Source: Daphnia pulex (Eukaryota; Arthropoda; Branchiopoda; Diplostraca; Daphniidae). From it: DNA of 64,000 bases. Under the pieces are notes generated by a model, which had not been told where the DNA came from, did not search any database, and was given only the letters and a program-made list of their open reading frames with translations. A program made the position numbers and the translations under genes. Location of the stretch: the NCBI RefSeq assembly GCF_021134715.1, contig NC_060025.1:2976001-3040000 (forward strand), given 5' to 3'. Below are positions 27,070 through 39,315 of the stretch, piece by piece (the first letter of the stretch is position 1; every line of letters starts with the position of its first letter).

Positions 27070-29228
27070 TCAAGAGAATTGACGAGTGGGCGACGGGTGA
27101 TAGCAGTTGGCGGTGGTGGTGGCCGACCTGGTGGGAGTCCTTGCGGCGTCGGCTGGGCCGATGCTGGCCGATCGGGTTTGGCTGATGTTGTCCATCAGGA
27201 CGGTGAAGGACGACGACAGGAGGGTCGTGCCCAGCAGGATGAGACAGGCGACGATGATGAGCGAAATTTGAGAGCCGACGCCCTGCGGGTGACTGCGCGA
27301 GCCGGATGGGTCTTCCGGGCCGTCCCCAGGGCTGGCTTCGGCGCTCATGCCGGGCAATAAATTACCGGCAAAGCCTAGCGTCATCAGCAGGTTGATGGTC
27401 AAGTGGAGACTGCCGGAGAAGCCCAGCTGCGGCTCGAAGAGGACCAGCAGGAAGCTGGCCAGGCCGACGAAGATGGCCAGCAGTCCGGCGCAGACCAGCA
27501 GAGGCACTTGAGTCGTGTCGGGCGAGGCTGAGCAGCAGGCGGACGGCGAGGAGGCCAGCAAGCTCCTTCTGCGCCCGCCCGCCATAGCCGCATCGTCTTT
27601 GAACGGCTGCCCGGCACCGGCCGTCGATCCGCTTTCCTGCTGGCCACCGGCGTGCCCGTTGCTGCCGGCCCCGCGGAACGACATGGGCTGCAGGGCCAGC
27701 GTGACGTCACTGTATTGTCGATAGGCACCGAGTCTTCGCCGACCGCCTGGCCGGCCACTGCCCGTCTGGTTCTCCTCGTCGTCCTCGTCGTCGCCGGAAA
27801 TGACGGCCATGTTGTCGTTGCAGCAGCAGCAACACGACAAAGTCATCCGGTTGATGATCCTGGCCAGCCGCTCGCCCACCACCGACAAGTAGAGCAGAAA
27901 GAGCGGAATGCCCAGCAAGGAGTAGGCCGTCGTCAAACTTTTGGCCAACAAAGTCGTCGGCGTGTAAAATCCATACCCTGGAAAATTGAAAATCAAAATT
28001 CAAAAATTCAAATTTAGCGCCAAAAAATAAAATCAATCAAATCGCGGGGATTTTAATTATTGAAAGTAGACGGGCCGGAAACTTGTTTGCCTTATTTTGA
28101 ATTAACGTCAACTCTCATTAACTCGAGTCGAGGATTGTCGGATTCTCCTTTGATTTGATCCCAGTCAAAGGGGAAAAAACCAAACGGGCAAACAACAAAA
28201 AGCTCTTAGCTCTTGTATTACCCAAAGGCAAACGGCTGCTGGCCCAGCTGACTGGATCGACACACTTTTTATACACAGCCGGTCCCAATATATGTGTTTT
28301 TCAGCAACTAGGGGGGGATGGCGACTATTTTTTGGCTGGAAAAAAACAACAAAAATTTTTGCGTCGGGGATTATTAACGTCGTTGTACGTAGGTGGCCCG
28401 TCCCCGGTGGCCCAGCCCAAAACAAAAAAAATAAAACAAATCCACTCTGCTGGTCTACATACACATTCCAGAGCGGAATATCCTGCCCGTTTGGGGATTA
28501 ACATTGACGCCAATGCGGACCTGCCCAGCAGCTCCGAAAAAATAAACCGCCGATCGATTAAATAAATGGCCGGCCTTACCGATGGTGGTGATGAGCGTGA
28601 GAGCGTAGAGGAGCGACATGGGGAAGGTCCAGGTCTGTCGGAAGGAGTAGCGATCCTCGAGCATCATCTGGCGCAGGGTGCGGACGATCTGGTCCTGGTA
28701 GTGGCGCATCTCCACCCGGGCCAAATGGGTCCAGTTGTCCCTGTACAGAATGTTGAGATCCTCCGTGATGGACCACAGACGGTCCACCGTGGCCAGCGTC
28801 TTCTCCAGGAGCCGACCGTCAGGATCGGCGTAGTGCAACTGCTCCTGCTGATGGTGCGGATGGTGCGGATGGACGGCCATCGCCCGCCCAGCCGCCTGCT
28901 GCGGCTGCGGCTGCTGCTGACCGGCTGATTTCGGGTTGGGGTGGACGTCCTGATTGCCCAGGATCATGAACATGACGGCCCCAATGATCAGGTAGGCCAG
29001 CAAGAGGATGGACACGCCCACGGCCGACGTCAGCCAAGTGCAGCCGGCCGTCCAGCATCGAGTGCAGCAACTGCATCGCTGAGCGGAGGAGGACGCTCGA
29101 CTGCCCGTCGCCCGCCCAGCATCTTCCGCCAGCGCGTTCCATTGTTGATTGTGATGATTGAGGCCGGCGGCGGCGCCCGTGGACGGCCCGCCGCCGCAAG
29201 TCGCGTCGATCTCGAAATCGGAGCTCAT
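27070..29228 (-). CDS. two-pore-domain potassium channel-like protein with degenerate second filter, 518 aa
   Basis: K2P channel subunit of the plasma membrane; such subunits dimerise so that two P1 and two P2 loops form one potassium pore. Exons are 29228-28580 and 27977-27070, joined inside the first filter (ATC G / GG TAT GGA). Visible order: cytosolic N-terminus with a Cys cluster (51-63), M1 66-90, extracellular cap with His/Gln-rich part and glycosylation sequon NWT (165-167), P1 loop about 202-224 with TTIGYG, M2 232-251, a loop with five consecutive Cys (265-269) and acidic/Arg-rich parts, M3 374-397, P2 about 403-426, M4 454-478, short tail. P2 reads TLGFAGN instead of the usual T-x-G-F-G-D, so the filter's second glycine and the following Asp are missing. 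It lies in tandem with the K2P gene at 35391-39315. K2P family membership is strong; conduction is doubtful. Related to arthropod TWIK-like channels by overall pattern. Confidence 0.9.
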
Positions 29229-35390: not shown

Positions 35391-38300
35391 TTATTCTTCG
35401 CCCGGCTTGATGCAGCCCAGGGACTGGCCGAGTTTCCTGACCTTGGCGATGACCTCCTCCTGCATGAGGTTGAAGCACATGGCGATGAGGGCCATGCCGA
35501 TGATGAGGTACATGGAGCAGAAGATGAGCGACAGCTCAATGCCGGACGAGCTGTTGATCTTGTCGCCCGGCACCAGGTCGCCAAAGCCCGTCGTGCTCAG
35601 ACTGATGAAGCAGAAATAGGAGCCGTCCAGGTAGTCCCAGTCCGTCTCCCACTGCTGGAACAGCACCGCACCGCCCACCATGTAACTCACCATCACCGTC
35701 AGAGAAATGGTGATGGGCACAGTGGCCGTCTGGTAATCCGGCTGGGCCGGCCCGGCAGCTGCAGCCGCCTGCTGATGATGATGGACGGACACGACGTCGT
35801 AAGGACCTCCTCCTCCCACTGGATGTAATTCGACGTCGTCGAAATCGGACGGCCCGCCCGGTATCCGTCGATGGTGGATGGAAACGACTGGATCGTATTG
35901 CTGCTGCTGCTGGACGGACGTTAAATCGGGTCTGGCTGTATTAGCTGGCGCCGATCTCTGGCTGATTCTGCGTCGTGACCCGCGCTGGGCGTGATGATGG
36001 ACGGGCCGGCTGAAGCAGGTGCATTTGCACAAATTGACGTAACCCCATCGGAAGCAGGTGGCCAGGAAGTCGCCCATGTTGGAGACGTAGAGGAGGAAGA
36101 GCGGCATGCCCACCATGGCGTAGACGATCGTCACCATTTTGCCCATCACCGTCCGCGGCGCAATGTTGCCATAACCTGCGCAAGAAGAGAAAAACGGACG
36201 GACGGACCAACCCAAAAAGAAAAAAAGTAAAAAATTGACGTTTTGAATTATTCAGGGGGAGAAGGAGAGATGGGCGCCCAGCGAACGGGCGGCGACGCCC
36301 ATCAAATCTCATGTTTCATTCAACAATTGAACATTGGCCGCTTGGGTCGCTTTTGTAGTCCAGACGTGTGTAAAATCTGACATATTCCAACTCCACCACC
36401 ACCCCAAGTTCCTCGTACTCTGCTAGCCGGGCACTGGTCCCGAAAAAAATCCCTTTGAGGATTCTTGCTGGGCGAGCCCAGGGAGAAGAAACGAACCGCG
36501 TCCCGTCGCGCATCTGCGGTCGCCCGCACGGAACGACAGCGGCAGCAGCGGCCAGCCGCCGGGAATTGAAACATGAAACGTGTCTGATGTGTTGTGGCAC
36601 AGCAAATGCACCGAGAGAGACGGACACACACAAAAAAAGAACCCAAACTTTTTTTTATTTTTATTTGTCCGTCACCCACTGGCCGGAAGTTATGGAGAAG
36701 AAAAAAAGAAAGAAATTCGTGATTTTCGCTCTGCTGGCCTTACACGCGCCTTTTTGGGGCTGGGCGATAAACTGATTCCCGTTCGAGGGTGTCGACCCCA
36801 CTCACTTGCAGAGTTTCTTGATTGCCACCACCACCAGCCGGGCAAAAAAAGAAAGAAAGAAGAAAAAGACTCTCGACTGTCCCTCACACGGTGGGTGGGT
36901 GGGTGGTAAAACTGTCCCCTCTCGCCCAAGTCGTTTGGGCGTGGATATACCGGCGTCGGCGGTTGCGGGCGTCCAACCAAAAAGTGGGGAGAGAAAACAA
37001 ACAAACGAGCAGGAGAAAGCCAGCGGACCGCGCCGGCCAGCTATACAAGAATAAACCTTTCTCTCTCTTATATGTATGTGTACACTGCCGCTAGACACTC
37101 TGATGAGACAAAGACGTGTGTGGGCAAGTGGGCGGTGTATATGTACATGGGGCGGACGGGAGCGGCAGTTGCACGTTCTCTTTCTTTCTCTCCGGCCGGC
37201 AGCAGCATGAACCCAACGGCGTCAATGAATCACGCGGGAATAATAATATTCGCCCGCGGCGTCGTTTTCAAACCATCGATCCAACTGGCAGCTCGGACAG
37301 ACCAGGAAACTGGACCCTCGAGGGCCGCAATGGAAGAAATCGATCGCGACCCCGAATATGTCTACAAAAGGCCGGCCCTGCCCGCCTCCCGGCCCAGCAA
37401 CGTTTTTTATTTTTTAAATTTTATTTCGTGATTCACCATCAAAAGGAGAGATATAGTCTATAATAATACCTTTGATGTAATACTCTCTGACGCCAACCTT
37501 TTAATCCAATCAGGTTGCTGGCCGGCGGGATAGTCACACCTTCAGAAGCTCCCACGGACATCTCCCGCCGACATTGCGCGGGATTGATCATACCAATGCC
37601 GACCTCCCATTGATCTTGTGCCCGTCCGTCGGTCAAACATTGTCATCCCCTCTCATCCACTCTCATTTCACGTTAGGTTATTAGTAGTTTTACTTCCGGC
37701 CAGTATTATTTTAAAAATATTTGCCCTGGGGGGTGATATAATTTGCGTGAAACCAAACACCCAAACACACACACACGTCGGTCTTATTTTGTGCTTTGAT
37801 TTATTTAGTAGCGGATGATGGAAGACGACAGAGTCAGCTGATGAACAACAAACTCCTCCGCCGGCAGTGGCGGCTGGGCTGGACTGGGTGAATCATCCGG
37901 CCCGTCTATTTTGACGTCCGTGTCCCGCCTGCTGCCCGTCTCGGCACAAGATACCAGACCCCCTCCCCCCCAAAAAAACTAACCGCGTCCGTCATCAATT
38001 CGGCTTTAATTCCCTGCACGTCTCTATTAACCTTAATTGGATCAACTTTAATTGCATCTGAATTATTCAGAATCAAATACGAATTGGTGAAGATCCAATT
38101 CAATATTGATTGCTGGCATCAGCCAGGCGTATATCTATACAAATGACATAAGCTCCTTGTTTCACATTGCAGATGGTCTAGTATTACATCAACACTCGGC
38201 CGGCTTCTCCGCCTTTGCCCAGCTCAACCCCCCCGGCGATATTATAGGACCTCAAAGGCCGTTTCTTTTTATTCCACTGGCTTCCAGGATCCGCCAGGAT

Positions 38301-39315
38301 CTTATATTTTTGTTGTTGTTGTTGCTTAAATTCGAATTTCATTTCTTATATTTTCCTTCCCAAGTAGCTCTATAGCTCCTATAGAGATATATCAAAGGGT
38401 TTCACTAAGGCGTGTGCCATCAGTCGTCCCAGCTGGCCCCCCTTTTTGTTAGACGACTGACCTGGTTGACCCCAACACCTTCGGCCGACAAATTTAAACC
38501 CAAGAAAAAAATACATCAGGAGCTCCTATAGTCTTATCTAATAATATCCATCGATTCCTATTACATTTCAGGTGGAAACCCTACAGCGCCAAATAGTCGG
38601 CTGGCGTGAATAAAGCCGGACAAGTGTTGTTGTTGTTCTATTTCCAATTATTAGAAAATGATATACCGATGGTCGTGATGACTGTGAGGCAATAGAGGAA
38701 AGAGGCGGAAAAGGACCAGGCGCCGGTAGTGGTGGCAGCGTCGCCGGGCGTCGGTTCTCCGCTCCCGTCCGTTATTTGAGATCTGCTGGCCACTAGCGAT
38801 TGGTTGACGTAATTCTTGCCGTCGTAGCCCTCCATGACGAACTGGACGATCTTCTGCTGGAAGAGCTGGACCTCGATGGAGACGGACTCGTTCCACTCGT
38901 TGGGGTACAGGACGTTGAGCTCGTGCGTGATGTTCCACAGGTTCTGGATGGTGGCCTCGCGCACCCGCTCCACGTCGGCGTATTGGCGCTTCTGGTCCTC
39001 CGACTCGATGGCCATAAAGGCGAACGCCCCCATGATGATGTAGCCCACCACCAGGCCGCAAATGCCCACGTGGCCGAACAGGAAAGCGATCAGTTTGCGC
39101 GTAAATTCCTTCACTTTGTACCACCACGAGTCCGTGTCAGGAGCCAACGAAGCTCCTGACGGGTGGTAGCCACCACCCCTATCCAACCCACGTCTATTAC
39201 CCCCACGTAGTTGCTGGTGGTCCCTTGGATGATGGTGCATCACCTGATGATCCCGCTCACGCACCGACATGGATCTCTGGTGCTGCTGGTGGTGATGGCT
39301 CCTGATGTCCGCCAT
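35391..39315 (-). CDS. two-pore-domain potassium channel, 477 aa
   Basis: K2P leak channel subunit of the plasma membrane. Exons are 39315-38667 and 36175-35391; the 2.5 kb intron splits the first filter after ATC G, exactly as in the paralogue at 27070-29228, and the first exon has the same 649-base length. Visible order: His/Arg-rich cytosolic N-terminus (1-65), M1 about 83-103, extracellular cap with sequons NIT (128), NES (142) and NQS (171), P1 with TTIGYGNIAP (214-223), M2 about 228-250, a 120-residue cytosolic loop with Cys, polyQ and His-rich parts, M3 about 366-388, P2 with STTGFGDLVPG (410-420), M4 about 429-452 and a short basic tail ending PGEE. Both filters are canonical, so an active potassium channel is expected. 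Ortholog assignment to a named insect K2P was not possible by eye. Confidence 0.95.

Follow-up and report, generated by a model that had tools for sequence, protein, structure and literature searches.

In the K2P pore, each of two subunits contributes two of the four filter strands. In KCNK7 the second-loop (P2) filter is degenerate, reading GLE, which is a substitution lesion. This subunit (also K2P7.1 or TWIK-3) has been termed silent or non-functional when expressed alone (PMC6377628, PMC8616229, PMC11339754). TASK-5 (KCNK15, K2P15.1) was reported as non-functional in 2001 and shown in 2024 to work through heterodimers with its conducting relatives, being silent by itself (PMC11364637). A common TASK-5 variant, G95E, turns GYG into EYG, and in the same account the silence of the wild-type protein is not caused by its filter (PMC11364637). 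Silent K2P-type subunits are therefore already known, the ones described in the papers we met being mammalian.

Here we describe a K2P-type gene of Daphnia pulex, gene A, that may be likened to both. Like TASK-5, it would be silent alone and would act through conducting relatives; unlike TASK-5, it carries its lesion in P2. It differs from KCNK7, a vertebrate gene, in that its lesion is best described as an inserted residue.

A K2P-type gene with a disrupted second filter

Gene A is encoded on the minus strand of the window, by which we mean the whole 64,000-nucleotide stretch of D. pulex DNA analysed here. Its parts are as follows.

29228-27070, minus strand: gene A, K2P-type with two exons, from the ATG at 29228 to the stop codon ending at 27070; 518 amino acids
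28580..29228, minus strand: exon 1, an open reading frame (ORF) with the ATG and splice donor ATCG/GTAAGG; it holds the start codon, N terminus, M1, extracellular cap, first pore helix and P1 filter as far as TTI-G
27978..28579, minus strand: intron, GT-AG, phase 1, within the first Gly codon of the P1 filter
27070..27977, minus strand: exon 2, an ORF including the stop codon, with Pfam Ion_trans_2 over its P1-M2 part only; it holds the rest of the P1 filter (YG), M2, cytoplasmic loop, M3, second pore helix, P2 filter, M4 and C terminus
28959..29015, minus strand: M1, residues 72-90, hydropathy peak 2.79
27874..27930, minus strand: M2 with a GIP motif, residues 233-251, hydropathy peak 1.74, one of four overlapping peaks
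27442..27498, minus strand: M3, residues 377-395, hydropathy peak 2.73
27382..27417, minus strand: second pore helix, residues 404-415, placed by alignments
27361..27381, minus strand: disrupted P2 filter, T416-L-G-F-A-G-N422, from translation and alignments, with an extra Ala420 between F and G
27211..27267, minus strand: M4, residues 454-472, hydropathy peak 2.37

Upstream of it lies gene K, a K2P gene with intact filters.

38667..39315, minus strand: gene K, exon 1
35391..36175, minus strand: gene K, exon 2, with the P2 filter TTGFGD at 35594-35577

Gene A starts 6.2 kb downstream of the K stop codon, in the same orientation. The two genes have in common a cap motif (LWxITxxLNxLY, found by alignment also in gene B, described below), their topology and a phase-1 intron in the P1 glycine codon, at a position identical in A, K and B. 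They differ in that K keeps TTGFGD, so the original prediction was right that this paralogue, spanning 39315-35391, retains its filter.

Much of the K2P architecture of gene A can be recognised directly. The hydropathy profile rises in four regions, which correspond to M1 to M4, and two pore helices are placed by alignment. Read across the splice, the P1 filter is an intact TTIGYG, as had been predicted. GIP is a conserved K2P motif in M2 (PMC6377628). The cap is without cysteine, as are those of TASK-1, TASK-3 and TASK-5 (PMC4726246). Pfam Ion_trans_2 recognised the P1-M2 part of the exon 2 ORF (26.4 bits against a cut-off of 22.5) and gave no match over its P2 part, whereas the same model matched two stretches of the K exon 2 ORF; the exon 1 ORF of A alone scored 16.7, below the cut-off. 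Similarly, a solved-structure search with exon 2 matched K2P chains over P1-M2 only, the best being KCNK6 (E 0.00043, residues 6-56). AlphaFold2, given exon 2 with K exon 2 as the only other row, returned a low-confidence model (mean pLDDT 41.0, pTM 0.23) with helices at M2, M3, the second pore helix and M4. The pore helix, M3 and M4 had been called intact, and all three are kept; the helix has the same length as in K.

Positions 27352-27417 of the minus strand translate as SGSLHLTINLLMTLGFAGNLLP, so that the P2 loop at 27417-27352 is SGSLHLTINLLM-TLGFAGN-LLP, the disrupted reading originally reported. In the 518-residue spliced model the alanine is indeed residue 420 (27367-27369); G421 (27364-27366) and N422 (27361-27363) follow it, and T416 and G418 precede it. 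The codons are ACG CTA GGC TTT GCC GGT AAT TTA TTG CCC in A and ACG ACG GGC TTT GGC GAC CTG GTG CCG in the matching stretch of K.

Between the first filter Gly and PG, the A loop is one residue longer than that of K, and pairwise alignments set GF-A-GN-LLPG against GF-GD-LVPG. MAFFT alignment of A with K places the gap opposite the alanine. The gap falls at the same residue when hhalign compares A alone with a profile of five canonical M3-P2-M4 blocks (probability 70.4, E 3.9e-05); a group profile of A with genes B and C opens a longer gap there and favours neither placement. The filter glycine had been thought replaced by alanine; from the first two alignments, an inserted Ala together with a D-to-N change and a synonymous change at Gly fits better and would be simpler, and we rejected a pure Gly-to-Ala reading on the MAFFT and single-sequence hhalign gaps. 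Whichever description holds, the TxG[FYL]GD signature is absent from P2. Given TLGFAGN at this site, we class gene A as a K2P-derived subunit and not as a K2P channel.

Codon usage around the lesion is also uneven. From Leu417 to Leu424 (27355-27378, minus strand), three of eight codons end in G or C, compared with 81% across gene A, although this stretch was picked post hoc and the difference may be chance.

Two further genes with broken second filters

We searched the genome (133,188,837 bases, 13 contigs) for Ion_trans_2 and obtained 57 matches. K2P and other potassium channels were told apart by reading each loop and its flanks, and many of the matches were judged to belong to the latter. 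This recovered 18 K2P-like second loops. Fourteen carry [T/S]xG[F/L]GD and one, on contig C12, carries KIGMGD, so GxGD is kept in 15; the remaining three, in genes A, B and C, are broken. The genome may hold further genes of this kind, since a broken P2 is hard to find by profile and the best candidates alone were scored. By comparison, a 2013 paper gives D. pulex five K2P members (PMC3879215).

Contig C7, 11935388-11933061 (ORF limits), minus strand: gene B, two exons, intron placed as in A
Contig C5, 11778111-11778920, plus strand: gene C, exon 2, an ORF

Gene B has lost both filters. Its spliced P1 reads TTLG-SC where A has TTIG-YG, leaving GSC for GYG, and its P2 reads TTTGIPDAHS, with GIPD at the filter. 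Gene C keeps GYG in P1, after a weak-looking acceptor (the acceptor side alone was read), and its P2, SLILISPPLV, has no filter glycine. A scan of the 3.1 kb upstream for a phase-1 G/GTRAG donor following at least 40 open codons gave a single frame for C exon 1, without a transmembrane segment, and exon 1 queries from A and B gave no match on contig C5. Gene B adjoins a canonical K2P gene, K7, which lies tail to tail with it on the opposite strand, with about 290 bp to the last K7 ORF. Two of the three broken genes, A and B, thus have a canonical K2P gene as neighbour, an arrangement that could reflect shared regulation or partnership.

The census turned up several other unusual loci. Contig C10 carries six decayed partial copies of C exon 2 with stop codons, near 10.59, 10.71-10.75 and 8.58 Mb; three of them (10.724, 10.738 and 10.751 Mb) are spaced by about 13.6 kb and have identical scores, which suggests recent tandem amplification. 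The odd K2P gene on contig C12 (7087199-7087872, minus strand) has CKIGMGD in P2 and a P1 exon ending in FTMIG. Canonical K2P exons that are nearly identical occur as two pairs, one at 0.574 and 1.781 Mb on contig C1 and one at 9.346 and 9.798 Mb on contig C2, and are apparently recent within-contig duplications.

Gene K also stands out among the intact genes. Its P2, TTGFG (35577-35594, minus strand), has Thr at a position occupied by Ile or Val in the other 13 intact loops and in the C12 gene; gene B has Thr at this position and gene A has Leu. In TREK-1, the second-loop mutation I267T, a Thr-for-Ile change at the matching place, gives a sodium-permeable channel, and TWIK-1 has TTGYG in P1 (PMC5376757). 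By analogy, K itself may be a less selective leak channel.

Relationships among the broken genes

To place the three genes, we used a tree of 11 of the 18 K2P-like genes with the filter columns removed (13 rows were aligned, two were dropped as too short and five genes were not entered). Its seven canonical rows (K7, C1a, C12, C5a, C6, C2 and C4) are ORF pieces whose exon joins were guessed by eye, and these may carry a few intron-derived residues or miss some. A, B and C fell on one side of a branch with support of 90/93, which is not starred, and the clades tested were named after the genes had been seen. Within the group, B+C had support of 65/37, an A+B pairing was not rejected (p-AU 0.388), and C sits on a long branch (1.87).

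The tree also speaks to the neighbouring genes. A constraint uniting A with K was rejected (p-AU 0.0167), and the pair share 33.5% of 203 aligned residues; the close tandem-duplicate tie to K assumed in the original prediction was dropped on these two results. Uniting K with K7, the two canonical neighbours, was borderline (p-AU 0.0485). Because K and K7 are not sisters in the tree, the A-K and B-K7 pairs need not descend from one duplicated block.

Direct comparisons gave a mixed picture. With A exon 1 as query, B (E 1.8e-6) came ahead of K (2.3e-4), and with B exon 1, K (E 1.8e-7) came ahead of A (6.1e-6). At E up to 10, the hits with A exon 2 were A itself, K and three further canonical genes, with neither B nor C among them; B exon 2 did not return A, and C exon 2 returned itself and its decayed copies only. 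Identity between A and B is 34.0% over 200 aligned residues, not meaningfully above that between A and K. A search of viral contigs with A exon 2 gave 58 pattern matches and no relative.

In one hhalign comparison, the combined M3-P2-M4 profile of A, B and C matched the canonical profile with a probability of 97.3 (E 1.9e-11), which argues that the pore domain was inherited and its filter eroded. Against solved structures (E up to 10), the combined profile gave ten matches, nine named as potassium channels and one as 'Transporter'; the best was KCNK6 at E 0.34, and six of the ten span just one helix. A, B and C are probably a small subfamily with a different lesion in each, and we tentatively favour a common origin for them. 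It is also possible that filters were lost independently within one part of the K2P tree, because direct searches with A exon 2 miss B and C.

Substitution patterns bear mainly on gene C. Omega was 0.682 and 0.672 when C was compared over 215 codons with two of its decayed C10 copies; comparing the two copies with each other gave 1.412, on 11 changes. This hints weakly that C has been kept under constraint and has no direct bearing on A. A and B differ most often at codon position 3 (0.610; 0.515 and 0.430 at the other positions). A and K lack this excess (0.468 at position 3, against 0.498 and 0.340 at positions 1 and 2), probably because both have high third-position GC (GC3).

A candidate silent subunit and its alternatives

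We propose that gene A encodes a K2P-type subunit that is silent alone and modulates a canonical partner, much as TASK-5 does, and we put the probability of this reading at about 0.55. The predicted protein retains the parts that would be needed for folding and dimerisation: the cap, M1 to M4, both pore helices and an intact first filter. A homodimer would combine two good filter strands with two broken ones. The subunit would be silent by itself and would pair with a canonical K2P subunit, lowering the partner's surface number or current or altering its gating, as TASK-5 does. As to the partner, the linked gene K would be our first guess. Dimerisation and silence are inferred here, as is modulation, by analogy with the known silent subunits. 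The pore domain is otherwise maintained, as seen in the open frame, GC3, transmembrane segments and M3-P2-M4 profile match. The case for a silent partner is stronger because B and C, in the same genome, also lack a P2 filter.

The main alternative, though a less likely one, is that A conducts by itself or together with a partner and that the selectivity or gating has changed. TLGF is kept, and G421-N422 might close a filter one residue longer than usual; P1 is intact, the pore helix has kept its length, and a Gly and an Asn follow the extra Ala. Small P2 changes can indeed leave a conducting, less selective pore, as TREK-1 I267T does (PMC5376757). A residue inserted into the filter is, however, a larger change than a substitution. 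Moreover, B, with GIPD, and C, with no glycine, have lost more, and if they are kin of A, this suggests that filter geometry is not under selection in the group.

It is more doubtful still that A is decaying, its filter lost because the subunit was no longer needed. Decay could account for a second half so diverged that Pfam does not see it, and the stop-bearing C10 copies show that at least one such gene sheds pseudogenes. The coding evidence runs the other way. Under a first-order Markov model of the same composition, the full 518-codon sequence of A stayed open in 1 of 20,000 draws and the length of exon 2 in 113 of 20,000 (0.00565); the other five frames of exon 2 have 2 to 12 stops each. 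GC3 over three successive parts of exon 2 was 0.80, 0.822 (the part with the P2 filter) and 0.785 (the part with M4), so the bias runs through both. The GC3 excess was 0.21 and 0.25 for the exon ORFs of A and 0.26 and 0.28 for those of K, while none of the remaining 41 ORFs on the list of 45, many of which are chance frames, exceeded 0.20. Two AATAAA signals, 165 and 184 bases beyond the A stop codon, carry little weight in their AT-rich surroundings. Finally, A and B have each kept an open frame and four transmembrane segments at the low identity given above. Because of the open frames, both splice sites and third-position GC, gene A is unlikely to be a pseudogene.

An assembly or sequencing error at the filter is scarcely credible even with evidence from one assembly, since the difference amounts to one whole added codon and further codon changes, the frame being kept on either side; as was noted at the outset, a single sequencing error does not explain it, and the same kind of loss occurs in B and C elsewhere in the genome.

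Implications for the K2P family

Among the papers listed by our literature searches (titles, beginnings of abstracts and passages), we recognised none on an arthropod K2P whose P2 filter is broken, and none on several K2P genes of a single genome whose filters are broken in different ways. Tentatively, and with some doubt, we suggest that branchiopods, perhaps arthropods more widely, have a dedicated subfamily of filter-broken K2P genes, some linked to canonical K2P genes, whose products would be regulators and not channels. If this is true, gene B, which has lost both filters, would have the K2P fold without being any kind of channel. With three genes whose P2 filter is broken, two of which adjoin canonical K2P genes, this genome would offer natural tests of how complete a filter must be in a modulatory subunit, and of whether selection can keep the K2P fold without a channel role.
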